NCBI RefSeq assembly: GCF_009389715.1
Contig: NW_024067979.1
Location: forward strand, 124,001-188,000
Reading direction: 5' to 3'
DNA length: 64,000 nt
Origin: Phoenix dactylifera
Lineage: Eukaryota; Streptophyta; Magnoliopsida; Arecales; Arecaceae
The translations under genes and the position numbers were made by a program. Shown here in pieces: positions 6,224-60,706 of the stretch (position 1 is its first letter; every line of letters starts with the position of its first letter). Under the pieces are notes generated by a model. It saw nothing but the letters and a program-made list of their open reading frames with translations. It made no database searches and was not told the origin of the DNA.

Positions 6224-6226
6224 TGC

Positions 6227-7171: not shown

Positions 7172-7199
7172 TCGAGGCCGTGGCGGGGACCTTGGTCGA

Positions 7200-8402: not shown

Positions 8403-8410
8403 AACTCGGG

Positions 8411-10790: not shown

Positions 10791-10849
10791 TTTTGTACCC
10801 CTAAGCTAAAAACATTTTCAACAGGTGGTGAAACGATAAAGTATTTAAG

Positions 10850-11092
10850 CAAGATATATAGGACACATTTGGTTTGCAACCGTAATCAAAATTAAAATCA
10901 AAATCTGAATGAATTGGAATGAGAATAAGAATGGTTATATCCCTCGAAACTTTTGGTTCATGATCGGAATCGGAGTCAGAATGAAATTTGAATACTAGAG
11001 GAGAGGGTAGGGATTGGATTTTAAGGGATTGAGACATTTTTTATTCTCATCTAAAATCGGAATAGGAATGGGACTCTCCCCAACTAAACAGT
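10850..11092. mobile_element. MITE-like repeat copy 1
   Basis: The repeat begins near GGACACATTTGGTTTGCAAC and ends at CTCCCCAACTAAACAG. Related copies lie at 14845-15145, 29055-29285 and 41447-41740. In copies 1 and 3 the outer part is replaced directly by the decayed B gene. The facing TTTGGTT and AACTAAA ends suggest a DNA-transposon-derived MITE, superfamily uncertain. Confidence 0.5.
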
Positions 11093-11094
11093 TA

Positions 11095-11755: not shown

Positions 11756-12546
11756 TGCATCTCAAGCGATTCATCTTTGGGAACTGTTTGTATGCTTAAT
11801 TAATCTTATATACATTATATTTCATATATTGCAGTTTTATGATTCTTTGTTGCTTGATATTGAGGTTTCCTGCTTTTTCACTGTTGATGTATTTGGATGT
11901 ACTCTGAAAAATAAAAATCATGGCATTGTATAATATTGTCTTGTATTCTTTGAAATTACAAAGTATTTTGGATTAGTTGGTTTCCGATAGTAATAGAAGA
12001 TTCTACAAAATCTTTCATATGGTGGAATTAGAAAATCTCACTTAAAGTTAAAATTTATATCTCTTATTTTCTCTTGCAATTTTTTTTTGAGCTTCCTCCT
12101 TCTAGCGACAAAAAAGAAAAATCAAGTTTTTTATAATATTCTAAAACTTTTGAATTAAGGAGTAGACAAAATAATAATTTTAGAATTCGTAATGTTTAAA
12201 GATTATCTAAAATTTTTGAGTTTTTTTTGGCTGCTCGTCCTTCCGCTCATGACTTGTGGGGTGCAATTACTTGCGTGATACATGGAGATAAGCAAAAGAA
12301 TGATATACTTTTCCAGTTTATTAGGCTTTTTCCATTAAACATCTTTTTCAGAAGGGTAGAATATTATTGCAGCAAGTAGGCTTCACCTAACTCCTCCCTG
12401 CAATGTTTCTCTTCCTCCAATCCAATTTTTTTTAGTCTTTTATCGAAATAACGTGTGATTTAGGAACTTTGTATATGATTCATTTTAGAATGATTGATGG
12501 CACTCAAATATATATATATATTATATATATATATAATAAAATAATA

Positions 12547-12580
<34 letters not shown>
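11756..12580. other. Conserved spacer between B1 and C1
   Basis: AT-rich sequence without a gene, repeated downstream of B2 (24357-25140), B4 (38244-39000), B5 (45861-46660) and B6 (60892-61380). A (TA)n and (AAT)n simple-repeat tract of about 75 bases ends it at 12508-12583. Confidence 0.7.
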
Positions 12581-12582
<2 letters not shown>

Positions 12583-12599
12583 GCACTAGTTGATTCGTG

Positions 12600-13024
12600 C
12601 ACGAAGTAAGTTCACAAGGACATGCCACCTTTCAAAAAAGAAAACAAAAAATGTTACATATAATGATGATGGATGACAACTGGTAGTTCCATTATATAAT
12701 GGTTGTCTTCCCCGCCTTCTTGTTTCGTTTTCCACTTTTTTTTAATCCTTAAGTCTAGCATGTTTCTTCTGCTCTCGTCAAGAAGAGGTCGAATCCATCA
12801 TCTGAATGAATTCAGCATGCATGGACTCGTTCAACTGGTTCCGATATGACCCTCGGAAATAGAAGGCATTTCGTATTGGATATTTTTTTAATTGTTTCTG
12901 TTTCAATATGCGATCCTAATAGAATTCCAAAATAACCAGGCATAGGCTCGGCTCTACAAGTCCAGGAGGAGACCCGCTTCCCGCGGTTACCTGCAAAAAG
13001 CCTCCATTTCGCGTGATCTCGGTC
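12600..13024 (+). promoter_or_regulatory. Conserved upstream block of gene C1
   Basis: This segment is conserved upstream of C2 (39010-39345) and C3 (50527-50970), and near the LINE insertion (25140-25545). It contains a TATA-like ATTATATAAT at 12691-12700 about 325 bases before the ATG. Around 12820 lies a strongly conserved stretch with AATTCAGCATGCATGGACTC. The promoter role is inferred from position and conservation only. Confidence 0.4.
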
Positions 13025-14077
13025 ATGGCCACGCCTTCTTCCGTAATTCCCAATAGCGGACGTGCCTTAGCGCCCGAGGAAGCAAAGCGAGAGGATGCTC
13101 CAAAACCTCGGAAAGAGTTCGATGATCTCATCTCAACCCTGCCTCTAAATCAAGACTGGATACCCATCCGCCTCCGAAAATACCAAGACTTCTGGATCCC
13201 CGAGCACTCTCTTCCAGAAGTCATGGCCATGCAGCAAAACTTCCAGGCTCGCCTCGACGACCTCTTTGTGCTGAGCTACCCCAAGTCCGGCACCACCTGG
13301 CTCAAAGCGCTAGCCTTTGCCATCATGACCCGAACCCGCTACTCCATGGCCGACCACCCTCTCCTCCGCTCCACCCCCCACGACTTCGTGGTCTGCATCG
13401 ATAGATTCTTCTCCGGCGGCAGGCCGTCCAAATTAGAGGCCATGCCTTCCCCTAGGATGCTCAGCAGCCACTTGCCATACCCTCTGCTACCGGATTCCAT
13501 GAAAGGAGCCGGCGGCCGATTCTTGTACGTTTGCCGGGAACCCAAGGACGTGTTCGTCTCCCGGTGGCACTTCAACGACAAGATGAGGCCCGACTCCGTG
13601 GAGCCGATTCCATTCGGCAAAGCTTTCGACTTGTATTGCGATGGCGTCAGCCCCTACGGATCGATATGGGAGCACGCTCGCGGTTACTGGGGGGAGAGCT
13701 TGAGGAGGCCTGAGAAGGTGTTTTTCCTCAAGTACGAGGAGATGCTGGAGGAGCCGGCGGGGAGTGCGAAGAAGCTGGCGGACTTCATGGGGTGCCCGTT
13801 CTCGCCGGAGGAAGAGAAGGAAGGGGTGGTCGAGGAGATTACAAGGCTTTGTAGTTTTGATAGTCTGAGCAAACTGGCCGGGAGCATGCCGCGCAAGCTC
13901 AACACGAAGCTGCCGCTGCAGACTACTTCATTCTTTAGGAAAGGAGAGGCAGGGGACTGGAGGAACCACATGAGCGAGGAGATGGCTCGGAGGATGGACG
14001 CGGTAACCTCGCAGAAGCTGGAGGGATCTGGTCTGACCTTCGGGATTAGCGCGGGCGTGGAAGCTAATGGAATGTGA
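13025..14077 (+). CDS. Cytosolic sulfotransferase C1
   Basis: A 350-residue intronless plant SOT. It should transfer sulfate from PAPS to a hydroxyl of a small acceptor in the cytosol; family members act on flavonoids, hydroxyjasmonate, brassinosteroids or desulfoglucosinolates, and the substrate here is unknown. The PAPS 5'-phosphosulfate loop PKSGTTW is at residues 86-92, the catalytic-base histidine in SSHLPY is His149, the 3'-phosphate motif YVCREPKD is at 168-175 and the C-terminal RKGEAGDWRNH is at 305-315. No signal peptide or membrane segment is seen. The first ATG in frame is at 13025 and gives the same N-terminus MATPSS as C2. The length is normal for the family. It differs from C2 at about 19 positions; Leu77 in QARLDD, where the other copies have Pro, is unusual. 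Decayed copy B1 lies about 1.3 kb upstream. Confidence 0.95.
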   Translation: MATPSSVIPNSGRALAPEEAKREDAPKPRKEFDDLISTLPLNQDWIPIRLRKYQDFWIPEHSLPEVMAMQQNFQARLDDLFVLSYPKSGTTWLKALAFAIMTRTRYSMADHPLLRSTPHDFVVCIDRFFSGGRPSKLEAMPSPRMLSSHLPYPLLPDSMKGAGGRFLYVCREPKDVFVSRWHFNDKMRPDSVEPIPFGKAFDLYCDGVSPYGSIWEHARGYWGESLRRPEKVFFLKYEEMLEEPAGSAKKLADFMGCPFSPEEEKEGVVEEITRLCSFDSLSKLAGSMPRKLNTKLPLQTTSFFRKGEAGDWRNHMSEEMARRMDAVTSQKLEGSGLTFGISAGVEANGM

Positions 14078-14361
14078 TTTGCATTTTGATGTGTTTTACC
14101 TCTTCCAATCTTGGTTGGAATTGTTCCCCCAGTAATCACTTCATCTTGGGGTGCTTGGGTTAAATAATTTCTGGCTTAATCCCTATGTATTGCTGCCTTT
14201 TGCAATACTTAAATATAATACTATGATCTGCTATCAAGTGCTTGGTGTGATACTCAAGATGTGGGTTGAAAAGTTAGATATGTCCTCCTCCATTCTCCCA
14301 GGGTCTTCTATTTTTTTTCTTAATTTTTTATTTATTTCTATTTTTTGGTTCAAAATAATTT
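14078..14361. other. 3' flank of gene C1
   Basis: Probable 3' untranslated and flanking sequence, strongly similar to the segment after C2 (40653-40934). No further gene is visible. Confidence 0.6.
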
Positions 14362-14788
14362 TGTGAGTATTTGTAAGTATGTGTATTTTATTCTACATCG
14401 GCTATGCATTGAATAGATTTTAGATACTTATACAATATCAAATAATCCAAATAATATCTTTTCGATGAGTTTTCAAATTATAACAATGATATCAGAGCAA
14501 ACTCGGACCATGGCTCAAATGGGCTAGGAGACACTGCAGCATAGGGTCTACTAAAGCTGACCATAAGCAGATTGTAGTGTTTGTGCTTAGATTTGTGGTT
14601 TTTGTAAATGAATTTAAACCCTTTGCTTAGTAAGGATGTCAAGACATAAACAAAAAAAAGTATGTGAGGATCATGTAAGTGTATATTTAATCTCATATCG
14701 GCTATATATTGGGTAGATCTCGGATACTTGTAAAGAGCCAAAGAATCTACATATTACCATCTAGCTAGCCTTTTTGGCAAGGCCCTAG
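14362..14788. mobile_element. TRIM-like element, best copy
   Basis: Two direct repeats begin TGTGAG at 14362 and 14663 and share the CGGCTAT(G/A)(C/T)ATTG(A/G) core. The first ends ...TATAACA at 14487. Just after it stands ATGATATCAGAGC, very close to the TGGTATCAGAGC primer site of methionine tRNA used by many plant LTR elements. The two LTRs of about 125 bases and an internal part of about 175 bases carry no coding sequence, which is TRIM architecture. Copies also lie at 10379, about 28525 and about 40935, so the element is part of the duplicated module. Confidence 0.55.
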
Positions 14789-14844
14789 GTAAGCTAAAGA
14801 CATTTTCAACATGTGGTAAAAAGATAAAGTATTTAAGCAAGATA

Positions 14845-15145
14845 TATAAAGCACATTTAGTTTACAACTGGAATTAGAATTGGAATTAAAATCAGAATAG
14901 ATTGAAATGGGAATTAGAATGGCCACATCCCTCGAAGCTTTTGATTCGTGACCTGAATCGACCTGAATCGGAATCGAAATGAGATTTAAATAATTGGAAA
15001 GGATAGGGATCGGATTTCAAGGGATTGAGATATTTCCATTTTCCTTTGAAACCGAATAGGAATGGGACGCTCCTAACCAAACAGCTGGAATGGGAGTAGC
15101 TCTTTTTTATTTCTATCTCATAGTTCAACTTCTTCTAACTAAATA
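14845..15145. mobile_element. MITE-like repeat copy 2
   Basis: Homologous to 41447-41740. The outer ends read GCACATTTAGTTTACAAC and, on the far side, AACTAAATATATTCTTAAG, so the ends are roughly inverted. It has no coding capacity. Confidence 0.5.
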
Positions 15146-21262: not shown

Positions 21263-22330
21263 CTAGGCTTGCGCTTGGACATCACAATTGGTGGCCGCGG
21301 CTTCCACATCCACACCATTGAGGGTAAGACCGGACCCCTCAAGCTTTTGCTCGGTGATGCGGTCCAACTTCCGCGCCATCTCCGGACTCATATGATTCCT
21401 CCAATCCCCTGCCCCTCCTTTCCTGAAGAGAGAATCATTGGTTTGGACGAAGTCGGGATGCAGTTTACCCGTCTTGTTGACCTCCAAGCTCTTCAGGTTG
21501 TCAAAGCTGCACAGCTGTATGACCTCCTCCACCACCCCTTCCTTCTCTTCCTCTGGAGAGAAGGGACACCCCATGAACTCGGCCAACCGCTTCACAATCC
21601 GCAGCGGATCCTCTAAGATCTCCTCGTACTTCAAGAACAGCACCTTCTCTGGCCTCCTCTGGCTCTCCTCCCAGTACTCGAGAACATGCTCCCATATCGG
21701 CCCATAGGGGCAATTGCCCTCACAGAACATCTCGAAGGCCTTGGTAAATGGAATTGGCTCCATGGGTTGCGGCCTCATCCCATTATTGAAGTACCACCGG
21801 GAGACCAACACATCCTTGGGGTCCCGGCACACATATATGACCTTACAGTCTAAGCTCTTGATGGTGTGTGGTAGGAGAGAGTATGGCAAGTGGGTGTTGA
21901 GGATACGAGGGGATGGCATGGCTTCTATTTCTGAGGGTTGGCCTAAGGAGTAGGTTCTGTCCAGGAAAGGGACGCACTCGTGAGGATTTCGGCGAAGGAG
22001 AGGGTGGTGATCGAAAGGGTATTGGGCTCGTGTCATGGTGGCGTAGGTGAGGGCTTTGAGCCAGGTGGTGCCGGACTTTGGGTAGCTAAGCACCCAGAGG
22101 TCGTCGGGGCGAGCCTTGAAGTTTTGCTGCATGTCCATGATGCCGGGGAGAGCACGTTGGGGGATCCAAAAGCCTTGGTATTTTCGGGTGCAGATGGGTG
22201 CCCAGCCTTCCTCCAAGGGGAGGGTTGAGATGAGGTCGGTGTAGTTGGATGGAGGTCTTGGATCCGCACCTTTTTTCCCTTGAGACTCCATTGGAGGGGG
22301 GCTGTTGCAAAGAGATGGTTGAGCAGCCAT
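21263..22330 (-). CDS. Cytosolic sulfotransferase A1
   Basis: A 355-residue intronless plant SOT that should use PAPS to sulfate a small hydroxylated acceptor in the cytosol; the acceptor is unknown. Motifs: PKSGTTW at residues 84-90, catalytic-type His147 in NTHLPY, YVCRDPKD at 166-173, RKGGAGDWRNH at 303-313. The N-terminal 30 residues are Pro/Ser-rich and variable, as usual in the family. The start at 22330 is the first ATG and is shared with A2 and with remnant A3. About 21 positions differ from A2. Transcription runs opposite to the C genes. A 1.6-kb solo LTR begins about 108 bases upstream of the start codon, inside the likely promoter, unlike in A2. Confidence 0.95.
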   Translation of the reverse strand: MAAQPSLCNSPPPMESQGKKGADPRPPSNYTDLISTLPLEEGWAPICTRKYQGFWIPQRALPGIMDMQQNFKARPDDLWVLSYPKSGTTWLKALTYATMTRAQYPFDHHPLLRRNPHECVPFLDRTYSLGQPSEIEAMPSPRILNTHLPYSLLPHTIKSLDCKVIYVCRDPKDVLVSRWYFNNGMRPQPMEPIPFTKAFEMFCEGNCPYGPIWEHVLEYWEESQRRPEKVLFLKYEEILEDPLRIVKRLAEFMGCPFSPEEEKEGVVEEVIQLCSFDNLKSLEVNKTGKLHPDFVQTNDSLFRKGGAGDWRNHMSPEMARKLDRITEQKLEGSGLTLNGVDVEAAATNCDVQAQA

Positions 22331-22437
22331 TGAAAAACGGATGCTATGCTATGCTCTCTAGCGGGTGTTTGTTTGCAGGGACTAGGGTTCAACTTCTCCC
22401 GGAGTGGCCTAGTTATCCCCTAAATAGAATAGATATA
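22331..22437 (-). promoter_or_regulatory. Proximal upstream region of gene A1
   Basis: About 107 bases are left between the ATG and the solo LTR. This segment is nearly identical upstream of A2 (28137-28243). It contains a TATCTATTCTATTTAGG stretch on the minus strand that could serve as a weak TATA region. The role is inferred from position. Confidence 0.35.
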
Positions 22438-27020: not shown

Positions 27021-28136
27021 TCATTCTAAACATCCGAAAAATAAAAAGAAGATCACAAACAACTTCGACAAGACTTGTGCTTGGACATCACCATTGGTGG
27101 CCGCCGCTTCCACATCCACACCATGGAGGGTTAGACCGGACCCCTCAAGCTTTTGCTCGGGGATGCGGTCCAACTTCCGCGCCATCTCCGGACTCATATG
27201 ATTCCTCCAATCTCCTGCCTCTCCTTTCCTGAAGAAAGAATCCTTGGTTAGGACGAATTCGGGATGCAGTTTACCCGTCTTGTTGACCTCCAAGCTCTTC
27301 AGGTTGTCAAAGCTGCACAGCTTTATGACCTCCTCCACCACCCCTTCCTTCTCTTCCTCTGGAGAGAAGGGACACCCCATGAACTCGGCCAACCGCCTCA
27401 CAATCCGCAGCGGATCCTCTAACATCTCCTCATACTTCAAGAACAGCACCTTCTCTGGCCTCCTCTGGCTCTCCTCCCAGTACTCGAGAACATGCTCACA
27501 TATCGGCCCATAGGGGCAATTGTCCTCACAGAACATCTCGAAGGCCTTTGTAAATGGAATTGGCTCCACAGGTTGCGGCCTCATCCCATTATTGAAGTAC
27601 CACCGGGAGACCAACACATCCTTGGGGTCCCGGCACACATATATGACCTTACAGTCTAAGCTCTTGATGGTGTGTGGTAGGAGAGAGTATGGCAAGTGAG
27701 TGTTGAGGATACGAGGGGAGGGCATGGCTTCTATTTCTGAGGCTTGGCCTCTGGAGTAGGTTCTGTCCACGAAAGGGACGCACTCGTGGGGATTTCGGCG
27801 AAGGAGAGGGTGGTGATCGAAAGGGTATTGGGCTCGTGTCATGATGGCGTAGGTGAGGGCTTTGAGCCAGGTGGTGCCGGACTTGGGGTAGCTCAGCACC
27901 CAGAGGTCGTCGGGGCGAGCCTTGAAGTTTTGTTGCATGTCCATGATACCGGGGAGAACACGTTGTGGGATCCAAAAGCCTTGGTATTTTCGGGTGCAGA
28001 TGGGTGCCCAGCCTTCCTCCAAGGGGAGGGTTGAGATGAGGTCGGTGTAGTTGGAAGGAGGTCTTGGATCCGCACTTTTTTTTCCTTGAGACTCCATTGG
28101 AGGGGGGCTGTTGCAAAGAGATGGTTGAGCGGCCAT
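27021..28136 (-). CDS. Cytosolic sulfotransferase A2, C-terminally extended
   Basis: A close paralog of A1 with the same SOT motifs: PKSGTTW 84-90, His147, YVCRDPKD 166-173, RKGEAGDWRNH 303-313. It should have the same PAPS-dependent activity if expressed. Two oddities stand out. The A1 stop codon TAG reads TTG here, so translation continues for 16 residues into former 3' untranslated sequence and adds a hydrophobic tail with FVIFFLFF. Trp213 of the conserved PIWEH segment is Cys (TGG to TGT). The start at 28136 is the first ATG and matches A1. The gene may be functional or newly drifting; about 21 of 355 residues differ from A1. Confidence 0.92.
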   Translation of the reverse strand: MAAQPSLCNSPPPMESQGKKSADPRPPSNYTDLISTLPLEEGWAPICTRKYQGFWIPQRVLPGIMDMQQNFKARPDDLWVLSYPKSGTTWLKALTYAIMTRAQYPFDHHPLLRRNPHECVPFVDRTYSRGQASEIEAMPSPRILNTHLPYSLLPHTIKSLDCKVIYVCRDPKDVLVSRWYFNNGMRPQPVEPIPFTKAFEMFCEDNCPYGPICEHVLEYWEESQRRPEKVLFLKYEEMLEDPLRIVRRLAEFMGCPFSPEEEKEGVVEEVIKLCSFDNLKSLEVNKTGKLHPEFVLTKDSFFRKGEAGDWRNHMSPEMARKLDRIPEQKLEGSGLTLHGVDVEAAATNGDVQAQVLSKLFVIFFLFFGCLE

Positions 28137-28243
28137 TGAAGAAAGGATGCTATGCTATATGCTCTCTAGCGGGTGTTTGTTTGCAGGGACTATGGTTCTA
28201 GTTCTCCCGGAGTGGCCTAGTTATCCCCTAAATAGAATAGATA
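28137..28243 (-). promoter_or_regulatory. Proximal upstream region of gene A2
   Basis: Nearly identical to the segment upstream of A1 but without an insertion, so it represents the ancestral promoter arrangement. The promoter role is inferred. Confidence 0.35.
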
Positions 28244-29552: not shown

Positions 29553-29639
29553 ATACTATCAGAAAACATGCGTATAGTAACACTACAAGAAAATACACTT
29601 TCAGCGACCACTTTCGGCGACTAAATGAATAGTGGACGC

Positions 29640-31959: not shown

Positions 31960-33650
31960 AATGATAAAAAATTTAGGCTCAGCAAATGATATTTGGTGTC
32001 CTTGTGTCGAGTGCATAAATGACAAAAAATAAAGCATTCAAGTTGTCAAGATTCATTTGATGTTGAAAAAAGTCTCGCCTTCTTACAAGACTTGGGTGCA
32101 ACATGGAGAATCTGTTCACGTGCATCAATCTTGTGTTTCAAATGATGCTAACTGTGACAATGGTGGAGGTGTTGAGGATAGAATGGCTGGGGATGGCACC
32201 GATGATAGGGATGAATTGTCTAATATGCTGGAAGCTGTTTACATGGGCACTTTCATGAATGACGATATTGACGAATTGCCTAATAACTTGGGGAGGGAGG
32301 ATGTACAGAAATTTGATAAGTTGTTCGATGATGCTCGACGACCCATTATCCTAGTTGCAAAATTTTTACAGTATTATCATTTGTTATTAAGATGCTTCAT
32401 ATTAAGGTGTACAACCAGTGGAGTAACTCCTCTTTTGACATGAACATGAAGGTATACAAGGAAATTCTACTGGAGTGTGATAAATCTGCTCCATGGACCC
32501 TTTATGAAGTCAAGAAATTTTTACGAGATTTAGGTTTGAGATATGTGCTAATTCAAGCATGCAAATATGATTGCGCTCTTTTTTGGAAGGAGAATGCGAA
32601 CCTGGAGAAATGCCCTATATGTGATGAGCCTAGATATAAACTGAATGATAGTAATGGTAAGAAGATTCCTCATAAAATTTTATGGTACTTTTTCCTGACA
32701 CCGAGATTGAAGCGCTTATTTTTGTCCCCAAAAATAGCTGTTGATATGAGATGGCACAAGGAGAAGCGAGTGGATGACAAAACATCAAGACATCCGGCTG
32801 ATGGGGAGGAATGGAGGAACTTTGATCGGCAACATCCTGAGTTTTTCAAGGATCCGCGGAATGTGAGGTTAGGGCTAGCCACCAATGGTTTCAATCCTTT
32901 TGAAAATATGAGCACATTGTACGGTATGTGGCCCGTTATCGTGATGCCTTATAATCTCCCACCTTGGAAGTGTATGAAAGAGCAATTTTGTATGCTGTCA
33001 TTGCTTATTCCCGAAAAATGGCTCCCGATAAAGAAATAGATGTTTACTTGAGGCTATTAATTGATGAGTTGAAAGAGCCTTGGAAGGATGGCGTGCAAAC
33101 TTATGATGCCTCTAGTAGAAGTACCTTTAGAATGCGTGCTGCTCTCATGTGGACCATTAATGACTTTCCTGCATATGGTAACATGTCTGGATGGCCAACA
33201 AAAGGTTACTTGGCTTGTCCCATTTGTAACGAAGATGCTACATCAAAATGTTTGAGGAGTAAGATTGGCTATATGGGTGCGAGGCGTTTCTTGCCTGAGA
33301 ACCACATATGGCAAAAGAACAAGCTCTTTAATGGTAAAAGTGAGGACATGTCAAGGCCACGAGAGTTCACAGGAGAAGAGATCTTGGAGCAAATTAATTC
33401 AGGGACATACAAGCTGTTGGGCAAGCATCCAAGCATTAATAAGAAAAGAAAAAGGGGAGAAGATGATGACACGATTTGGGCCAAGAAAAGTATTTTGTTT
33501 GATCTCCCTTATTGGAAAATACTCAAGCTGCGTCACAACTTGGATGTCATGTACATAGAAAAGAAACATTGCAGAAAATATTGTTGGGACAACTCGAGAG
33601 TATGTTTTTTTAAATTGCTTATTAAGGTTCAGCTATTGTATATTTAGTTG
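31960..33650 (+). pseudogene. TNP2-type CACTA transposase, broken
   Basis: A transposase-associated zinc-finger-like segment (CPCVECIND, then SPSYKTWVQHGE) lies around 32000-32110. The TNP2 core follows: LLHIKVYNQWSN, CPICDEPRYK, MRWHKEK, HPADGEEWRNFD, LGLATNGFNPF, MWPVIVMPYNLPPW, then DGVQTYDAS, FPAYGNMSGW and CPICNEDA. A shift of frame at a short A run near 33020 separates LLIPEKW from APDKEIDVYL. The sequence stops making sense after LDVMYIEKKHC near 33570, where the rest of the core is missing. A stop also lies near 32028 in the N-terminal segment. The enzyme would cut and move CACTA ends, but this copy cannot be active. Confidence 0.88.
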
Positions 33651-39009: not shown

Positions 39010-39599
39010 GTTGATTCGTGCGCGAAGTTCAACAAGGACATGCCACCTTTCGAAAAAACAAACAAAAAATGTTACATATAATGATGATGGATGACAACTA
39101 AAGTAGTACCATTATATATTTCGTTTTCCGCCTTCTTTTTTTTATCCTTAAGTCTGACATGTTTCTTCTGCTCTCGTTACAAAGAGGTCAAATCCATTAT
39201 CTGAATGAATTCAGCATGTATGGACCCGTTCAACTGGTTCCGATATGACCCTCGGAAATAGAAGGCATTTCGAATTGGATATTTTTTTAATTATTTCTGT
39301 TTCAATATGCAATTCTAGTAGAATTCCAAAATAATTTTTGTATCTGTTCAAATGTAGATATGAAGCTACAAAATTTTGCGGAATATGGATCCAATATCCA
39401 CATTAGACTTACGCGTGGTATATGGTTTATCAGTCTTGGTATCATATTTATTAATCCGTGAAGCGGGTCACCACCAATAATAACCAGGCATAGGGCTCGG
39501 CTCTACAAGTCCAGGAGGAGCCCCGCTTCCCGCGGTTACCTGCGACAGTATAGAGTACCTTCCAGGGCTACCAAGCCTCCATTTCCCGTGAGCTCGGTC
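39010..39599 (+). promoter_or_regulatory. Conserved upstream block of gene C2
   Basis: Homologous to the C1 upstream block. A TATA-like ATTATATATT lies at 39111-39120, about 480 bases before the ATG, and the conserved AATTCAGCATG(T/C)ATGGAC stretch near 39207. About 130 bases (39345-39475) are extra relative to C1. Promoter function is inferred. Confidence 0.4.
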
Positions 39600-40652
39600 A
39601 TGGCCACGCCTTCTTCCGTAACTCCCAATAGCGGATTTGCCTTAGCGCCCGAGGAAGCAAAGCGAGAGGATGCTCCAAAACCTCCGAAAGAGTTCGATGA
39701 TCTCATCTCAACCCTGCCTCTAAACCAAGACTGGATACCCATCCGCCTCCGGAAATACCAAGACTTCTGGATCCCCGAGCACTCTCTTCCAGACGTCATG
39801 GCCATGCAACAAAACTTCCAGGCTCGCCCCGACGACCTCTTCGTGCTGAGCTACCCCAAGTCCGGCACTACCTGGCTCAAAGCGCTAGCCTTTGCCATCA
39901 TGACCCGAACCCGCTACTCCATGGCTGACCACCCTCTCCTCCGCTCCACCCCCCACGACTGCGTGGTCTTCATCGAGAGATTCTTCTCCGGCGGCAGGCC
40001 GTCCAAATTAGAGGCCATGCCTTCCCCAAGGATGCTTAGCAGCCACTTGCCATACCCTCTGCTACCGGATTCCATGAAAGGAGCCGGCGGCCGATTCTTG
40101 TACGTTTGCCGGGAACCCAAGGACGTGTTCGTCTCCCGGTGGCACTTCAACGACAAGATGAGGCCCGACTCCGTGGAGCCGATTCCATTCGGCAAAGCTT
40201 TCAACTTGTATTGCGATGGCGTCAGCCCCTACGGATCGATATGGGAGCACGCTCGCGGTTACTGGGAGGAGAGCTTGAGGAGGCCTGAGAAGGTGCTTTT
40301 CCTCAAGTACGAGGAGATGCTGGAGGAGCCGGCGGGGAGTGCGAAGAAGCTGGCGGAGTTCATGGGGTGCCCTTTCTCGCCGGAGGAAGAGAAGGAAGGG
40401 GTGGTCGAGGAGATTACAAGGCTCTGTAGTTTTGATAGTCTGAGCAAACTGGCCCGGTGCATGCCGCACAAGTTCAACACGAAGCTGCCGCTGCAGACTA
40501 CTTCATTCTTTAGGAAAGGAGAGGCAGGGGACTGGAGGAACCACATGAGCGAGGAGATGGCTCGGAGGTTGGACGCGGTAACCACGCAGAAGCTAGAGGG
40601 ATCTGGTCTGTTCTTCGGGATTAGTGCGGGCGTGGAAGCTAATGGAATGTGA
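39600..40652 (+). CDS. Cytosolic sulfotransferase C2
   Basis: A 350-residue intronless SOT, close paralog of C1 with about 19 differing residues. PKSGTTW at 86-92, catalytic-type His149 in SSHLPY, YVCREPKD at 168-175 and RKGEAGDWRNH at 305-315 are intact. It should sulfate a small hydroxylated acceptor with PAPS in the cytosol; the acceptor is unknown. The first ATG in frame is at 39600 and matches C1. Most differences to C1 fall in the N-terminal 30 residues, in HDCVVFIERF, and in the LARCMPHKFNT loop ahead of the C-terminal motif. The latter two could touch acceptor specificity, as inference. Confidence 0.95.
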   Translation: MATPSSVTPNSGFALAPEEAKREDAPKPPKEFDDLISTLPLNQDWIPIRLRKYQDFWIPEHSLPDVMAMQQNFQARPDDLFVLSYPKSGTTWLKALAFAIMTRTRYSMADHPLLRSTPHDCVVFIERFFSGGRPSKLEAMPSPRMLSSHLPYPLLPDSMKGAGGRFLYVCREPKDVFVSRWHFNDKMRPDSVEPIPFGKAFNLYCDGVSPYGSIWEHARGYWEESLRRPEKVLFLKYEEMLEEPAGSAKKLAEFMGCPFSPEEEKEGVVEEITRLCSFDSLSKLARCMPHKFNTKLPLQTTSFFRKGEAGDWRNHMSEEMARRLDAVTTQKLEGSGLFFGISAGVEANGM

Positions 40653-46866: not shown

Positions 46867-47962
46867 CACTACAAAAGAAGGAAGAACTTCCGACGCTTTT
46901 TTTTGTCTCTACCGACGTTTATAAGCGTCGGCGAATTCCCAGCCCACGCTTCGCAAAGCGTGGGTCAAACGTCGGGCAGGTGGGCGTGGGTCCGGTTTTT
47001 GCCGACGCTTTCTCTTAGCGTCGGCAAAAACAGGACTTTCCCGACGCTAATGAAAGCGTCGGGAAAATACTCAACGCCGACGCTTATAAGCGTCGGCGTT
47101 AGCAACCTGTATTTTTTAAAAAAAATTAAAACAGAAAGAGGGGAACCAGGCCATGGCCGCCATGGACAACGGCGAAACCCTTCCTCGTATAGCCCTGGCA
47201 AAATCTTCCGCCATGGACGACGGCATGGGCGACATGGGACATCATGGTATGGCGCCCATGGGCGATATGGGACAAGGCATGGGCGACATGGGACACGGGA
47301 TGGACGACATGCACATGACTTTCTCCTGGGGCAAGAACGCCTAGATCCTCTTCTCTGGTTGGCCGGGCGATAGGGGCGGCATATATGTCCTTGCGCTCAT
47401 CGTCGTCTTCGTTCTCGCAGTCCTCCTCGAGTGGTTCAACTACAGCCGGGTGATCAGCCCTCGATGGAGCCGTGTGGTGGCTGGGCTGGTTCAGACGGCG
47501 ATCCGGAGGAGCCCTCGAGTGCCCCTGCTTCGAAGCCCAGGCGGCGGCGGATTAAAAGAAATTAGGGGAGAACGGGTGGGGTCTCCGGTGTGGGATTAAA
47601 AGAAGAACGGCGGATGGTGGGGTGGGCGGATGGAGCGGCAGAAAAAGGAGGGATCGGGGGAGCGGCTGGGTGAAGAAGGAGGGACCTCCGACGACGCTTT
47701 AAAGCGTCGTCGTCTCTAAGATCGGGGGAGCGGCTGGGTGAAGGAGGGATCGGGGGAGTTGGGCCCCTTTTGGCCTCCGACGACGCTTTAAAGCGTCGTC
47801 GTATCTTTTGGCCTGCGACGACGCTTTAAAGCGTCGTCGTATCCAAATTTCACCCGACGCTAAAACAAAGCGTCGTCGAGTTTCGACCCCGCTCGGTTTT
47901 CGCCGACGCTTTTTGATAGCGTCGGCGGGGAAGAGTCGGCAAAACCATAATTTTTTGTAGTG
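46867..47962. mobile_element. Non-autonomous Pack-CACTA, 1096 bp, with COPT fragment
   Basis: It begins CACTACAAAAGAAGG and ends TTTTTTGTAGTG, with a perfect 3-bp GAT duplication (46864-46866 and 47963-47965). The interrupted LTR reads through at 9350 in the truncated copy. Subterminal arrays of CCGACGCTT/AAGCGTCGG motifs lie on both sides. The first 150 bases are homologous, in inverse orientation, to the right end of the element at 54809-60390, so the two belong to one family. It carries no transposase and instead holds a host gene fragment. Confidence 0.93.
47153..47500 (+). pseudogene. Captured COPT/Ctr copper transporter fragment
   Basis: The translation starts MAAMDNGETLPR and continues with a Met/His/Gly/Asp-rich N-terminus (GMGDMGHHGMAPMGDMGQGM). 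The family signature HMTFSWGKNA follows, then ILFSGWPG and a membrane segment with LALIVVFVLAVLLEW. Copper transporters of the COPT/Ctr type have such a Met-rich extracellular part before the first membrane helix. A TAG at 47342-47344 replaces the Glu expected in KNAEILFSGW. Homology ends after GLVQTA near 47500, before the second and third helices. It is therefore a dead 5' gene piece carried by a CACTA element. Confidence 0.85.
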
Positions 47963-50531: not shown

Positions 50532-51576
50532 CACCTTTGTAAAAAAAAGAAAAAATGTTACATACAATGATGATGGATGACAAGTTAACAACTAGTAGTT
50601 CCATTACATAAAGGAAGGGACCAGTCGGCAAAAGCAAGACACATGCGTCGGCGGTGGTGGGCAAATGGTTGCTTTCCCCACCTTTTTCTTGTTTCGTTTT
50701 CTGCCCCTTTTTTTTTGTCTAGCATTTTATGGTTGCTTTCCCCACCTTTTTCTTGTTTCGTTTTCTGCCCCTTTTTTTTTGTCTAGCATTTTTCTTCTGC
50801 TCTCGTTAAGAAGAGGTTAAATCCATCATCTGAATGAATCCAGCATGCATGGACTCATTCAACTGGTTCCGATATGACCCTCGGAAATAGAAAGCATTTC
50901 GAATCGGATATTTTTTTAATTGTTTCTGTTTCAATATGCAATTCTAATCGGATTCCAAAATAATTTTTTATCTGATCAAACGTAGATATGGATCCAATAT
51001 CCACATAAAACCTAGATGTTAAAACGTGCCAAAATAATGGTAGAAGATGGAATCATACCCCTGCCTTAGTTGACAACTTTAACAGTAAAGGCAATATTGA
51101 TTAGTGTATCAGAATGGCGGTTTATTATGCTTAATAAAATCTTTTCTTATTGGTGTAATTTAAAATATGTTGCTAAGCTTCAGTAATTATTTTTTTGATA
51201 TAAAAATAATTCTTTTTCCCTATGATAGCAAATAGACAAAAAAAAACTTTATTTATTTTCTAAACTTTGGAATTTCTAATAGAAAAAGATATCAATGAAC
51301 TCTAAATATCTTACATTGTGTATAACTTAAAGTTATTTATTTTTTTAACAAAAATAGATGATTTGTAATTATTTTTAATTAAGCTATAATTAAGTTGCCG
51401 TGACGCTCGCTTGCAACTTATTCTGCACCAAACAAACAAAACGTCGGGCAAGCGGGCACATGATGAACGTGGCGACCGAATTATTTTGAGCCGCTCCTCT
51501 AATCGTTGTCATTACGTATCAAAAGTTATTGCTTATAAGAGCTGAAGATCAGCATTGGAGCTTCCTCCATCCCGTC
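50532..51576 (+). promoter_or_regulatory. Upstream region of gene C3
   Basis: 50532-50970 is the conserved C-type upstream block (AATCCAGCATGCATGGACTC near 50836), and 51400-51520 is shared with the segment around the LINE at 25690-26394. A 64-bp unit from ATGGTTGCTTTCCCC to TCTAGCATTTT is tandemly duplicated at 50665-50792. 50990-51390 is unassigned AT-rich sequence. No clear TATA box could be fixed. Confidence 0.4.
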
Positions 51577-52602
51577 ATGGCCACTTATCCCCCTCGCTCT
51601 GGTGCCCCCATTCCGTTCAAAGTAATAGAAGAACAGGAGGACCACCCTTCTCAGCCACGTCTTGAGGATTACGATGACTTCATCTCAACTCTCCCATTCG
51701 AGAAAGGATCGGTTCCTTCCAGAAAATACCAAGGCTTCTGGTACCCGGAGGGCTTTCTCCCGGGCGCCATGGCCATCCAGCAGCGCTTCAAGGCACGTCC
51801 CGACGACCTCTTCCTTGTATCCTTCCCCAAATCCGGTACCACCTGGCTAAAAGCCCTCGTCTTCGCCACCATGACCCGAAAACAGTACCCTCTGGCTCGC
51901 CACCCTCTCCTTAGCCTGAACCCTCACGACTGCGTTGCTTATATAGAGGAACGCTTCGCCATCGGCCAAGCCTCCAAAGTTGAAGCCTTGCCTTCACCGA
52001 GGATCCTCTCCACCCACATGCCTTACTCCTTGCTCCAGGACTCGGTCGCGGGCTCCGGCTGCAGGATTATCTATATTGCCCGGGACCCCAAGGATGCCTT
52101 GGTCTCCTTTTGGCACTTCACCCAGAAGTCTTCTCCGAAGCTGAACAAAATTCCATTTACGGAGGCCTTTGAGGCTTTCTGCGAGGGGAAGTTTCCTTTT
52201 GGGCCCATATGGGACCATTTGTTGGGGTGGTGGAGGGAGAGCTTAAAAAGGCCCGAGAAGGTGCTGTTCCTCAAGTATGAGGGATTGTTGGAGGAGCCGG
52301 TGGCCAACGTGAAGAGGTTGGCGGAGTTCGTGGGGTGTCCGTTCTCCGAAGAGGAGGAGGAGGGAGGGATGGTGGAGGAGATTGTAAGGTTGTGCAGCAT
52401 GGAGAGCATGAAGAGCTTGGAGGTGAATAAGGTTAGGAAACACGGGCCGATTTATCAGTTTGCCAATTCCTCGTTCTTCAGGAAAGGAGTCAAGGGCGAT
52501 TGGAGGAATCATATGAGTCCGGAGATGGCTCGGAGGTTGGACGTCATCATCGAGGAAAAGCTTCAGGGATCTGGTTTGACCGGTTGGAGTTCCCAAGCTT
52601 AG
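51577..52602 (+). CDS. Cytosolic sulfotransferase C3
   Basis: A 341-residue intronless SOT and the most divergent of the five. PKSGTTW at residues 84-90, catalytic-type His147 in STHMPY, IYIARDPKD at 165-173 and RKGVKGDWRNH at 302-312 are intact, so a PAPS-dependent cytosolic enzyme is expected. The acceptor pocket segments differ clearly from the A and C1/C2 types (for example EERFAIGQASKVEALPS and FWHFTQKSSPKLNK), which suggests another substrate. The first ATG in frame is at 51577 and aligns with the MAT start of C1. The gene ends at 52602 with GWSSQA. It follows pseudogene B5 in the module order, but the LTR fossil separates them. Confidence 0.95.
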   Translation: MATYPPRSGAPIPFKVIEEQEDHPSQPRLEDYDDFISTLPFEKGSVPSRKYQGFWYPEGFLPGAMAIQQRFKARPDDLFLVSFPKSGTTWLKALVFATMTRKQYPLARHPLLSLNPHDCVAYIEERFAIGQASKVEALPSPRILSTHMPYSLLQDSVAGSGCRIIYIARDPKDALVSFWHFTQKSSPKLNKIPFTEAFEAFCEGKFPFGPIWDHLLGWWRESLKRPEKVLFLKYEGLLEEPVANVKRLAEFVGCPFSEEEEEGGMVEEIVRLCSMESMKSLEVNKVRKHGPIYQFANSSFFRKGVKGDWRNHMSPEMARRLDVIIEEKLQGSGLTGWSSQA

Positions 52603-54772: not shown

Positions 54773-55380
54773 TGAAAAAAGGATGCTAGGCTATGCTCTC
54801 AAGGGGGTCACTACAGTAAAAGTGTGAAAAGCCGACGCTTAAATGCCGACGCTAAGGGAAAGCGTCGGCATTTCCTGCTCCCGCGCCAAGCTTTCCCGAC
54901 GCTCTTGGTGAGCGTGGGAAATTTGAAGCAGTGGACGCTCTTGGTGAGATATTCTTTTGTTGTTGGGTTGGGAGAGTAGCAGCATGTAAATTATATCATA
55001 TTATGCATCAGACATGGGGAAAGAAACATGGTTAAGGGCTAAAGATCTGAGTCATCTGACAGACACAGGAAGTATGCACAAGGTCTTCCTTCTCCCATGC
55101 CCTTCTTCTGCTGACTGAAACCTTTTCAATTTTTTTCTTGGGAAAAAAAGGTTCTTCTCCCATGTCGTATCCAATTTAAGTCATTCTTTTCAAGTCTAAC
55201 AACAAAAGTTGATGTCATTCTTTTCAAGTCTTACAACCATGCAGTAATATGTTTACGACCATGAAAGCATTAAAATTTCTAGCAAGATGATGATGCCTCC
55301 ATGGCAATGGAACTTTATTTAGTATAAATTTATCATTTAACCAAATATTGATTCTTTTTTGTGCATACCAGGTAACAATA

Positions 55381-57218
55381 TGCTCCGAGGGAGACGATTT
55401 AGAGATGTGGAGTTCCAGCATTCTCAGGTGGGATCTACTTCTGATCAGTCCCTACAGTCCCAGCAGCCATGTGAGCATCAGCAGCACGAGTCAGGATCTC
55501 AGCGCGAGCCTCCTGCTGATTGCCCGGAGGATGAGCTCCGGATCCAGGATAATTCGATTTAAAGTTCATATTTTATGTTCATATTTGTCTTCAACTTTTT
55601 AAGACGTATTTTATTTAATTTTAATAGATGGACAAGGGACGGTGAGGACGAGACGGGGACCCACTCAAGCAAAGGATGTGTGGAAGCTTCCTCCGGGTGA
55701 GAAGATCATCATCCGATGCAACGAATTGGGGCAGCCCATCAATAGAGCTGGAAGTCTACTATCAAGCTTTTTAGGATCGGTTGCACGCAAGGGTCAGCTG
55801 TGTCCACTCAACAATACAAAGTGGAATGACATGTTTCCTTCGTATAAGGTTGAGCTTCTTAGACTCATACAGGTAATGAATTGAATTTATTCTTTTTAAT
55901 TCGATACCTCCTGTATATTAATTTGCTTAGTATCATAATTTTATTTTAGATGTTTAATATTATTATAACATTCTGATCTTGTTGTAGGGTAAGTTTGTAC
56001 TCCCTCCAGAGAGCCATGATTGGGTGCTAAAGTCCCTCAATCGCAAATGGAAAGAATATAAAGCAAAATTAAAGACGGACTTCAAGCGCGAAGGTATGAT
56101 AGAGGAGGAGGTTGCTTGTGTGACTCCTCCTGATGTATACCCTCAGCAGTGGAGGGAGCTTGTTCATTACTGATTTTCTGAAAGAGGACAGGTCACGTAT
56201 ATTGTTTCAATATCTTCTATTATCTTTATTATTAATATAGAGTGCAAATATATACATTGAATCATATTATACTGTGTGCTTTTATTTTGGCAGACATATT
56301 CTAATATTGGTAGAGCTGCACGAGCATCTCAAGCAGTTCCTCATACTTCAGGCTCGAAGAGTTATGCGAGACGTAGAAATGAATTCGTAAGTTCTTTTGA
56401 AACTATTTGAAACTCTACTAACATATAGCACGTATCATGATATATAGTTTGCCCATATACTTTCCGTATGTGTAGATAGTAAAGCATGGAAGGGAGCCTG
56501 GTGAGGTAGAGTTTTATAAGATGACCCACACTCACCGAGATGGCAGCTTTGTCCGGGACGAGTCGAGAGATATAGTTGTATGTATTCATTTTTTATTTGA
56601 TCATAATTATTAATTTTACTTCCTTTAAATTATTAATGTGACTGTTTATTTTTTTGAGAGAGATATAGGAAAGAGCTACAAATCTCATTTCAGAGCGCGT
56701 CGGGGAGTCATCATCATCCGACGCGGCCAGTCGCGTCGAGGCTCAGGTCTATGTAGAATTGATGGGCCCAGAACGTTATGATCGGGTGAGGGGTTACAGT
56801 TTCGGAGTTACCCCCACTCAGCTGTCTGCAGTGAGCCGATATACCCAAGATGCCAGACAAGGTACTAGCACTGCAGAGGTTTGTAGTTTGAAGACAGAGA
56901 TGGCACAGATAAAGCAGTCATATGAGACAAGGATAGAGGAGATGAGGCAGAGTCATATGACTGATATGGCGGAGTTGAAGCAGAGCCAAGAGTTGAAGAT
57001 ACAATCTTTGCAGGATCAGCTTGACCATATTTCATCTTTTTTGCAGAGATTTGCTCCTCCGGTACATAACTAAATATATTTGAATATTTTATATAATTAT
57101 AATGTATTCTTGTATGAGCGTGATGACTTTCGTATTTTTAGTTTCTAAAGTATTTTTTTTCTTGTAGGTTGCTGATACTTCATCTACTCGTAGAGATGAT
57201 GATGCCGTCGACTCTTGA
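55381..57218 (+). pseudogene. TNPA-like (Ptta/En/Spm, Transposase_24) gene of the Pack-CACTA
   Basis: Exons by reading frame and GT/AG borders: a first part from MLRGRRFRDVEFQHSQ at 55381, then about 55628-55872 (GPTQAKDVWKLPPGEK, SFLGSVARKG), 55988-56191 (GKFVLPPESHDWVLKSLNRK), 56294-56386 (SNIGRAARAS), 56476-56574 (GREPGEVEFYKMTHTHRDG), 56669-57061 and 57168-57218 ending DDDAVDS. The exon at 56669 holds a coiled coil rich in Gln/Glu/Met (MAQIKQSYETRIEEMRQSH). One in-frame TGA at 56171-56173 stands where Trp is expected in LVHYWFSERGQ. The border after the first part is unclear. Proteins of this type bind subterminal repeats of CACTA elements. Confidence 0.8.
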
Positions 57219-57336
57219 TATATCGTAGATTGTGTACTTACGATTTTGAGATGAATGTTTTTAGATTGTTTTAAATTTTTTTTTTTTTGATACTTACCTC
57301 AATTTCCAAAGTACGATTATGCCAGAACTTTGATAA

Positions 57337-57400
57337 GTATAGATCTTGGAAAGGACTTTAATTAGTATGTTCTATGTTGACTTGACAGGAACATGGTTTC
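57337..57400. repeat. 64-bp direct repeat, left copy
   Basis: Starts GTATAGATCTTGGAAAGG and ends AACATGGTTTC. An identical copy lies at 58416-58479. The pair brackets the captured SERINC segment. Confidence 0.95.
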
Positions 57401-57609
57401 CAAAATCTTATGTATAACAATTAGTTTGTAGAGTTTGATCGGTTTAAGATAGATAATGCAGATTCGGTCAACCTCAGCCAAAGGAAGAAACACTATCTAG
57501 ACACTCCACTCCATTTTAGGTCCTAACGGGCTCTAGGGCCAATAGACCGGTCCCATTACTGGTATAATGGTATAACCCTTGCACTATTGACAAGTCTTCA
57601 GTTTTCTAG

Positions 57610-58200
57610 ATGGCCTTTGACATGTGCTCGATGTTTCCTGTGTTCCACCTGGTGTAGGCTCTGAGAGGCCTTTGCTTCCTTTTGACAAGGTAGAGGAGCA
57701 GGAAGACAGGAAGAAGGATGAGGCTAAGCCTGTCTCCTATTCATATTCCTTCTTCCACCTCATTTTCTCCCTTGCCAGCATGTACTCGGCTATGCTTCTT
57801 ACTGGCTGGTCCACGTCCGTTGGTGAAAGTGGTAAGCTTGTTGATGTTGGGTGGCCCTCTGTGTGGGTCAGGATTGTGACTGGGTGGGCCACAGCAGCTC
57901 TCTACATCTGGTCTCTAATTGCTCCCATTCTCTTCCCAGATAGGGAGTTCTGACTCCCAAGTATGTAAAAGGATGCAATAATTATTTGGGACCCAAGTCC
58001 AGTATCATTGAGTCTGTACATGTCTCTGTACACAGCTCTCGATGCTGCATTTATGGAGGAATCTGTATTATAGATGCAGGCTAAACTTATGTGTGATTCA
58101 AGAATGATAGAGATGTTGCTATAATGTTTGGAATTGTAACCATGGTGCTTCATAATTGAACAGTAAGATGGTCATCCTTTCTTGTGCATGATTCACTGGC
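57610..58200 (+). pseudogene. Captured serine incorporator (SERINC/TMS1-like) 3' end
   Basis: The frame from about 57650 reads SERPLLPFDKVEEQEDRKKDEAKPVSYSYSFFHLIFSLASMY and SAMLLTGWSTSV in neighbouring pieces. It then gives VGWPSVWVRIVTGWATAALY and ends IAPILFPDREF with a stop at 57951-57953. This is the well-conserved C-terminal exon of plant SERINC membrane proteins, with its last two membrane helices. It is followed by AT-rich sequence that resembles the gene's 3' untranslated region to about 58200. The other exons are missing, so it is a gene piece and not a functional copy. Confidence 0.85.
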
Positions 58201-58415
58201 AACATGCAAATATTTGCTGGGTAAACTTTGATTTCATTCTCTGAAACTTTAGATAATGGGAACAATTTGTATTGGGTAATCCTACTGTTTGCTCGGCCGG
58301 AAGGAAGGTATGCTTTCTTCTGCTTTACATGTTGGACTGGGAGCCGCAGTTATTGAAAATATTGGGCAGGCTTTTGGTACTAAAAAAACAGCAGCGGTTG
58401 TTGCAGTATGATCGG

Positions 58416-58479
58416 GTATAGATCTTGGAAAGGACTTTAATTAGTATGTTCTATGTTGACTTGACAGGAACATGGTTTC
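58416..58479. repeat. 64-bp direct repeat, right copy
   Basis: Identical to 57337-57400. It lies between the SERINC segment and the LEUNIG segment. Confidence 0.95.
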
Positions 58480-58679
58480 AGGACAGGCAGTCCGGCTGGA
58501 CGACTTGACTCCCACGATCTAGATGAGGTAACTGGAATACATCTTCTTCATGAAAGTAAACTGTAGATTTTGCTTTTCTTCCTCTTGTTCTTCTTCGATG
58601 GTTAGCAGGGCTACTTGTCATACATGAGAAACCTGATAGATCATTCTTGTGGTTCTATTTTGCTGGCCAGCAATCTTGA

Positions 58680-58970
58680 TCGTTTGCATTTTACTTGATT
58701 GTGTGCTTTTGCTAATTTTTGTTCTGTATTCTTTCAATTCTTGCAGTCTTTGGAGCTGTGGAATGTGATAGAGAACCAAACCATGACGGTCCAGGCACAC
58801 GAAGGTCTTATTGCAGCATTGGCACAGTCACAAGCCACAGGAATGGTGGCCTCTGCTAGCCATGACAAGTCTGTTAAGCTGTGGAAGTAAACATGGGGGT
58901 GCTGCAGTGGAAGTAAGCTGTGGAAGTAAGCCACAGGAATTTTTGGAAGCTACTTTGATGGTTTATGTAT
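58680..58970 (+). pseudogene. Captured LEUNIG-type WD40 corepressor 3' exon
   Basis: After an intron end TTCTTGCAG at 58738-58746 the exon 58747-58890 reads [20 protein letters not shown], then [20 protein letters not shown] and KSVKLWK followed by a stop. This corresponds to the last WD40 repeat of plant LEUNIG/LEUNIG-homolog transcriptional corepressors, which read very similarly up to their C-terminus. Intron sequence before it and probable 3' untranslated sequence after it are included, so genomic DNA and not cDNA was captured. GGAAGTAAGC is duplicated near 58910-58930. Confidence 0.82.
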
Positions 58971-59317
58971 TCGTAGACTAAATGTTTTGTGTCATCTGTA
59001 CTGAACTTCTTGTTCTATCTTACTAATCCCAGTGGTGTAGAAATGCATACCTTGTTATAATTAGTGTTGGAAGCAGTGGAACAGAGCTACTGCTGCACTG
59101 ATTGTTGGTAAATCTTAGTTTTTAAGGTAACACGTGCTTGCTTTTCCATGTCTAGCCTCCATGATGGATGTGCTTCTTGGCAAACTATGTCTCTTCAACC
59201 AAATGATACTTTATATAATATATCTTTGAACCATGTAATTTATGTTGATTTGGAGAAATAGTGCGATCTGATGACTAGTGTAATTTATGTAATTTATGTA
59301 ATTTATGTTGATTCATG

Positions 59318-59950
59318 TATGAGGTTTAACTATGCTCGTGATGAAGTTGATTTGATTGGTAAGGATGTGGGTGGTGCAGAATTGACTGGGTATGGTAATC
59401 GAAGATATTCCTCTGTTCTGAAAGCAGCTAGAGATCGTGGGAGAAGTCACATTAGCTTCAAAGATTCTGACAATGATTCTCATATGATTTCCCCATCAGT
59501 CTGGAAATCTGGAGGCCCATATCATGTGGCTCGTAGGGCATACCAGGAAGATTCGGACGAGTGTTATGAGACAGTTTATGCTGCTCGTCTCAGTGACAGG
59601 ACGAGGCCTATGCTGTTTGATGTGGATTTGACGGTTCAAGCAAGTTATCAAGGTGAGCATGTTCCTCTGGTTTCTCTGATGAGCAGATTGAATGGCAAAG
59701 CAATTATAGGACACCCTGTTCAAATTGAAATACTCAAAGATGGTTCCACTGATCCACTTGTTTCTAGAAATCTTTTTGGTCTGGATGAAAATACAGCATG
59801 CCCACCTGTCTGGAGGACTGCAAGAAGAACTGCCATGCAACGAGTTCCTCGTTCTAACCCATCAGCCTTGGATGGTGAAGATGCTGGTGGTCTTCAATAT
59901 AGAGACAGAGAAAGCAAACCTCAAGTTCACAGCTACCAGAAATTCGCAAC
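59318..59950 (+). pseudogene. Captured PWWP/Tudor-type protein fragment
   Basis: An open frame of about 210 residues reads FNYARDEVDLIGKDVGGAEL, VWKSGGPYHVARRAYQED, LFDVDLTVQASYQGEHVPLV, SLMSRLNGKAIIGHPVQIEI and VWRTARRTAMQRVPRSNP in order. The segment V-A-SY---HVP--SLMS-LNG--IIGHP resembles the C-terminal part of plant Tudor/PWWP/MBT-superfamily proteins such as the At1g51745 type, whose role is poorly known. No PWWP domain itself is in the piece. The frame runs into the subterminal repeats and stops at 59969. The long open frame suggests recent capture. Confidence 0.6.
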
Positions 59951-59969
59951 CCATAGGTTTGATGTTTAA

Positions 59970-60360
59970 CGACGCTTTATTGCGTCGCTCAAGTAGCATA
60001 AACCGACGCTTTTAAGCGTCGGCATAGTCCAACACAAAATACGGTGGGAAGCGTGGGTTGAAGTACGCCGACGCTTTTAAGCGTCGGGTTTGTATAAAAT
60101 GAACGACGCTTAAAAGCGTCGGCATAGTCCAACAGAAATACGGTGGCAAGCGTCGGTTCAAGTACGCCGACACTTTTAAGCGTCGGGTTTGTATAAAATG
60201 ATCGACGCTTAAAAGCGTCGGCATAGAGCGACGACGCTTTTTTGACGCGTCGGGTTAAACCCGACCCACGCCCACCTGCTCGACGTCTGACCCACGCTTT
60301 GTGATGCGTGGGCTGGAAATTCGCCGACGCTTAAGAGCGTTGGGAGAGACCAAAAAAAGC
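59970..60360. repeat. Right subterminal repeats of the Pack-CACTA
   Basis: CGACGCTTTTAAGCGTCG palindromes and their halves occur about a dozen times, separated by about 60-bp units with GGCATAGTCCAACA. 60230-60360 is inversely homologous to 46870-47000, the left end of the smaller Pack-CACTA. Confidence 0.88.
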
Positions 60361-60390
60361 GCTGGGAGATATTTTTTTTTTTTTGTAGTG

Positions 60391-60706
60391 GGGGTTTGCT
60401 TGCAGGGACCATAGTACAAGAGAGAGTGACGTGTTAAAATTAGACTCGATGGTAAGAGAGTGACGTGTTATTCTCTAAATAAAATCGATGATAAGAGAGT
60501 GACGTGTTGTCCTCTAAATAAAATCGATGATGAGAGAGTACAGTACAAGGGGCCCAGACCATGGCATGTTTAATAGGCTAAGTTGTGGCCTCGGTTGTCG
60601 CACATTAAATTATAAGTATCTCCTGCAGTTGCAAAAGGTGCCGAGAAAAAAATAAACGGAGGCAATTGGTTGGCTCTTGATATTTGGGAATCCAATGGAC
60701 CCGAAC
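60391..60706. other. Module joint upstream of A3 and before B6
   Basis: The segment GATAAGAGAGTGACGTGTT with its neighbour AATAAAATCGATGA is present in about three tandem units at 60430-60540. The rest matches 24075-24180. No gene is seen. Confidence 0.55.

Follow-up and report, generated by a model that had tools for sequence, protein, structure and literature searches.

A 64,000-nucleotide stretch of the date palm (Phoenix dactylifera) genome, positions 124001-188000 of contig NW_024067979.1 (G000:C332:124001-188000; 773-Mb genome) and hereafter called the window, contains a CACTA transposon in which a nearly intact TNPA-like gene is accompanied by at least four pieces of host DNA. The best-matching parent locus of each piece lies on a different contig of the same genome, and the pieces differ from their parents by roughly 0-2%. 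The element is a Pack-CACTA, a transposon of a known kind, and we consider it likely that it is non-autonomous and belongs to a family that was recently amplified in this plant genome. Its parts, in window coordinates and with strand, are as follows.

54809-60390, +: CACTA element, 5582 bp, CACTACAGTAAAAG...TTTTTGTAGTG
54809-54944, +: short stretch at the 5' terminus, meeting interior sequence at 54945
55628-57218, +: TNPA-like gene, six annotated exons with GT-AG introns, PF03004 match
56396-56411, no strand: putative mosaic breakpoint, resembling L029/L030 on its left and the other compared copies on its right
57337-57400, +: first 64-bp repeat copy, identical to the second
57401-57599, +: remnant of a 541-568 bp block, longer in sister copies
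57596-58418, +: SERINC piece (last exon, 3' untranslated region (UTR), downstream DNA), parent C7:1985534-1986356, 98.3%
58416-58479, +: second 64-bp repeat copy, identical to the first
58480-58564, +: element sequence, which in sister elements L036 and L037 adjoins the single 64-mer on its 3' side
58565-58907, +: WD40/LEUNIG-type piece (from the last intron through the last exon and its stop into the 3' UTR), parent on C18 (L031)
58908-58935, +: 28-nt filler (J2), LEUNIG last exon re-copied in three overlapping stretches
58936-59206, +: fourth host piece (Z), inside the LEUNIG piece, parent locus C14:10536103-10536372, 97.8%
59207-59274, +: LEUNIG-type downstream piece, parent L031 5665-5732
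59275-59323, +: filler (J3), the adjoining LEUNIG end copied again three times, GTAATTTATGT units
59324-59922, +: third gene piece, internal to a parent exon, parent C5:13667717-13668315, 99.2%
59970-60390, +: 3' subterminal repeats and terminus, CCGACGCTTTTAAGCGTCGG palindromes

Ends, insertion site and TNPA-like gene

A preliminary description of this DNA had reported CACTA ends, subterminal repeats and an empty site, all of which we confirm. The CACTA...TAGTG termini characteristic of the En/Spm group lie exactly at 54809 and 60390, and the subterminal motif GCCGACGCTT and palindrome repeats occur at both ends, most densely at the 3' end. The element is flanked by GGT (54806-54808) and GGG (60391-60393), a putative 3-bp target duplication with one mismatch that was deduced from a by-eye comparison with two paralogs of the site in the window. 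These paralogs (near 22366 and 28172) are continuous across the insertion point, reading GGGTGTTTG, and adjoin sulfotransferase open reading frames (ORFs; PF00685); the position of the element corresponds to a place just upstream of a sulfotransferase-like ORF in both. Sequence upstream of the 54945 junction differs in the sister copy L013 from the 136-bp 5' region of the window and, judged by this junction, the window copy looks shortened. The first 60 bp of the window element were matched, at 78%, in L010 and L021 only among the fetched loci, most of which end short of the 5' end; the 5' terminus appears to be less clearly, and only loosely, common to the relatives, in comparison with the widely shared 3' end.

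The TNPA-like gene (exons 55628-55872, 55988-56191, 56294-56386, 56476-56577, 56669-57061 and 57168-57218, with a possible further first exon upstream) has a single in-frame stop at 56171-56173. With this stop read as X, its protein matches the plant transposase family Transposase_24 (PF03004) at E=3.8e-29, in line with the earlier view of a nearly intact gene. TNPA exons without an internal stop were present in six of 14 copies, the window included (L013, L015, L016, L017, L021 and L028), when counting copies with at least 90% of the exons covered and substitutions only, i.e., ignoring insertions and deletions. No TNPD match was found among the scanned ORFs of the element, which did not comprise every ORF.

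Host gene pieces and their parents

The parents of the SERINC, LEUNIG-type and third gene pieces, i.e., of all three pieces that had been recognized from the window sequence, were located at L022, L031 and L025, and that of Z at L035, so that at least four host pieces are present instead of the three in a row described previously. The two fillers and the significance of the 64-bp repeat had likewise gone unrecognized. The SERINC piece matches PF03348 (6.8e-32), and further Serinc exons lie upstream in its parent. The LEUNIG-type piece shows 0/325 differences from its parent in the core, and this parent likewise has further WD40 exons upstream; the WD40 match of the piece itself (1.8e-5, 25.6 bits) falls slightly below the 27-bit Pfam cut-off. 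Both are, as proposed, 3' ends of genes, and the inclusion of the SERINC 3' UTR and of the last intron and 3' UTR start of LEUNIG bears out that genomic DNA was captured. The third piece is not the proposed C-terminal end, as it is located in a 427-aa open exon that, in the parent, extends a further ~120 aa past the piece. Neither the piece nor two long parent ORFs gave a Pfam match, and a WWP motif was absent when the fetched 9.9 kb were read in three frames; the PWWP/Tudor assignment stays unconfirmed. Two diverged paralogs, L032 (82%) and L026 (90%), were dropped as parents in favor of L022 and L025, respectively.

The LEUNIG piece is the remnant of a larger capture. A single short capture was ruled out, since upstream parts are kept in sister copies (parent positions 2753-3479 in L021 and 4555-4983 in L027/L028). 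The identifiable protein-coding cargo of the window lies in TNPA orientation, as had been claimed, and the same sense holds for 5/5 coding cargos of the family (SERINC, WD40, the third gene, GT8 and NAP). This is only suggestive, with 1/32 expected if orientation were random.

A family of sister copies

The search for relatives scored the best 40 of 620 candidates and all family counts are, therefore, lower bounds. Of the 26 stretches that we fetched, 20 are element loci; the others are the three parents L022, L025 and L031, the diverged paralogs L026 and L032, and L012, which is a continuation of L011. There are at least 20 sister loci with shuffled and sometimes different cargo, and an intact TTTGTAGTG-type 3' end occurs in 17 of the 20 fetched. 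Exact 3-bp duplications flank six relatives (L010 AAC, L014 ATA, L015 TCC, L016 ACC, L021 AGA and L027 AAA), in all of which both ends lie inside the fetched DNA; the family thus comprises several insertions with their own target duplications, as expected for mobile Pack-CACTA elements. Variant termini occur in L014, which starts with TACTA, and L027, which ends with TATAGTG. L023 and L024 lie ~20 kb apart on the same contig. L011 (C1917) contains ~8.2 kb of extra DNA, at about 6752-14930, that is absent from the otherwise 99% alike L009.

The assembly consists of 2391 contigs and L009 and L011 represent a single insertion present on two of them, which raises the question of whether the mosaic structure could be an assembly artefact or a chance similarity. 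We regard this as extremely improbable, since the same SERINC, 64 bp, LEUNIG joint recurs in 10 copies at separate places (window included, L009 and L011 being one insertion) and the six relatives bear different target duplications.

Scars at the joints and the capture mechanism

The host pieces were probably copied in during the repair of breaks inside the transposon, followed by later deletions and exchange. Three features suggest break repair: 64-bp direct repeats on both sides of the SERINC-bearing block, with uninterrupted sister sites, re-copied filler, and the nesting of Z within LEUNIG. The uninterrupted site (tttgataa, the 64 bp, aggacaggcagt) was found in both of the two inspected sister elements without SERINC (L036 and L037), where the single 64-mer is flanked by the left neighbor of the first copy and the right neighbor of the second. 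The duplicated arrangement (tttgataa, 64-mer, caaaatc...atgatcgg, 64-mer, aggacag) is present in the window, L009, L011 and L017. Among 21 elements (the window and 20 others), four have both 64-mers, seven only that on the SERINC side, four only that on the TNPA side and six neither, a distribution in keeping with later deletions. The segment 58416-58564 was also considered as a separate gene capture with its own small exon, which was ruled out since the TNPA 3' flank of L036 runs straight into this segment.

Filler J2 is built from overlapping stretches of 11, 18 and 13 nt that match the last exon of LEUNIG and is followed by GGAAT, which is common to Z; the stretches in filler J3 measure 12, 13 and 18 nt and match the end of LEUNIG. 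For each, none of 5000 shuffles equalled the matches. J3 leads into the third gene in 7/13 copies (window included) and into other sequence in 6/13. In L017 the order is LEUNIG ending in TTGCAG, filler, Z and then TTGCAAAATTTC resuming LEUNIG; Z is thus inserted between LEUNIG sequence ending in GTGTTGCAG and that starting with TTGCAAAATTTC, with 8 nt of LEUNIG lost and TTGCA common at the exit.

These joints bear directly on the fusion of neighboring copies (the Catoni model), in which two CACTA copies insert on either side of a host segment, the ends facing each other degenerate and the outermost ends mobilize the whole as one element. Such fusion has been described for Pack-TYPE elements (PMC8903248, PMC13317346), and the near-identical interiors but different 5' termini of L010 compared with L015 and L016 are as hybrids would give; fusion may account for the swapped 5' ends. 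As the origin of the cargo we consider it unlikely, as the neighbors of the window pieces are the 3' sequence of TNPA, further cargo and filler, no terminal repeats were seen at the joints, and neither the LEUNIG-Z-LEUNIG nesting, the re-copied filler nor the 64-bp duplication with its uninterrupted sister site would be predicted. Gap repair after excision, in which a transposase-made gap is refilled from a sister copy with switches into host genes, would be expected to leave similar joint signatures, and for animal Pack-TIRs gap filling with microhomology, mostly independent of transposition, has been put forward (PMC8277862). It requires excision-linked breaks at the ends of the element, whereas the 64-bp duplication and the Z insertion indicate internal breaks. 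We judge it quite improbable, although with the present data it is not cleanly separable from repair of internal breaks.

Under repair of internal breaks, the element would have been broken just 3' of TNPA and later within the cargo itself. Repair synthesis would have jumped to unrelated host genes and back by template switching at microhomology, and the pieces may subsequently have been trimmed by internal deletions. The cargo block could then have moved onto another backbone by recombination within TNPA, and the copies would have spread by transposase supplied in trans.

A mosaic backbone

Compared with L015, the window differs at 64/1970 positions in TNPA but only 10/1720 in the cargo (Fisher 2e-9). 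The ratio of TNPA to cargo divergence from the window is 4.0-6.9 for L014, L015, L016, L017 and L020, and 3.8 for L010, in which TNPA is only partly covered. Within its own clade (L009, L011 and L013) the window shows 24-30 differences of ~1976 in TNPA and 6-11 in the cargo. The 3' subterminal repeats are more divergent than the cargo in the tabulated pairs.

Seventeen sites group the window clade with L029/L030 to the exclusion of the other copies, and every one of them falls left of 56453; the reverse pattern is seen at 36 sites, 33 of which fall right of 56410. The best split, 56395/56411, was not equalled in 10,000 permutations (0/10000) and recurs with the window alone (0/5000). Two control triples gave no signal (2118/5000 and 1004/5000) and the L015 clade showed a weaker split elsewhere (23/5000); exchange may, therefore, be general. 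We read the window lineage as a mosaic of two TNPA lineages.

Several observations weigh against repair of internal breaks with later exchange, at least in its simplest form. In four elements (C904, C17, C1:3511xxx and C11:27570xxx), found among the best 40 of 62 candidates for the 58416-58564 segment, this segment is complete and preceded by the initial 541 bp of the block, and there is no SERINC match (29/29 candidates scored); the first 64-mer is also listed in two of them (C1 and C11). The 64-bp duplication may, therefore, predate SERINC, i.e., it may stem from an earlier insertion, with SERINC as a later replacement or second step. The L036 and L037 sites, instead of being ancestral, could also have arisen when the two 64-bp copies annealed and the DNA between them was precisely lost, and these two elements, 99.4% alike over 492 columns, are possibly not independent. 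Slippage may explain part of J3, as the number of its 9-bp units varies between copies, and the shuffle controls for the fillers are crude. Finally, the own-clade ratio of TNPA to cargo divergence is 1.9-3.0, not 1, and the divergence gap could result partly from uneven mutation.

Going beyond repair of single breaks, we tentatively suggest, as a possibility we would not yet favor, that the family acts as a repair-driven cassette assembler with a recurrent break site just 3' of TNPA that template switching fills with host DNA, later captures nested in earlier ones, and a growing cassette passed between lineages through recombination in TNPA, so that cargo and backbone evolve separately.

Other features of the window

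A 1096-bp element of a related CACTA group (46867-47962) lies in opposite orientation with an exact GAT duplication and matches the main element's 3' end at 75%. Outside the main element, ORFs at 32332-33647 include a Transposase_21 (TNPD/tnp2) match at 32332-33039; with an end of a different type, CACTACAAG, at 29581, they possibly represent another CACTA family. Sulfotransferase-like ORFs form a cluster (12923-14077, 21263-22348, 27021-28154, 39462-40652 and 51490-52602), for three of which (21263-22348, 27021-28151 and 51490-52602) Pfam was run. Retroelement-like ORFs occupy 4198-6226 on the minus strand, with Pfam reverse transcriptase and RNase H-like matches in the stretch scanned (4917-5741), and ~117-bp tandem repeats at 1466-2761 overlap a long minus-strand open frame (2097-2852).

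Comparison with known systems and significance

Tgm-Express1, a 5.7-kb soybean CACTA element with five host gene fragments that are processed as exons of the host gene at the insertion (PMC1947982), resembles the date palm element in carrying several unrelated host pieces with introns included. The date palm element differs in that it keeps a TNPA-like gene and has at least 20 sister loci with shuffled cargo and intermediate states. Like Pack-CACTA and other Pack-TYPE elements, it has host coding DNA between its ends, is multicopy and shows stepwise acquisitions within clusters (PMC8903248, PMC13317346), although repair with template switching accounts for the present joints better than the neighbor-fusion mechanism proposed there. 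The transduplications of grapevine Cactavine-5, likewise a CACTA element, also place host gene sequence after the transposase ORF, in that case in the opposite orientation (PMC2528002), whereas the five coding cargos here are sense. Animal Pack-TIRs share microhomology at the joints and captures in the element interior; they occur in different hosts, and the portion of that source used here describes no filler of re-copied sequence and no 64-bp duplication with sister sites (PMC8277862). PMC8355091 deals with small tandem duplications that arise at DNA breaks. A literature search of limited reach found no report combining CACTA with LEUNIG or SERINC.

The way in which cut-and-paste transposons acquire host genes is still debated, with neighbor fusion (PMC8903248, PMC13317346) set against gap filling (PMC8277862). 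The present family is unusually legible for testing the capture mechanism; with parents, uninterrupted sister sites, intermediates and joint scars in one genome, the competing mechanisms give different, checkable predictions. If cargo indeed moved between backbones, this would explain how a set of gene pieces could spread beyond the lineage of its original carrier.

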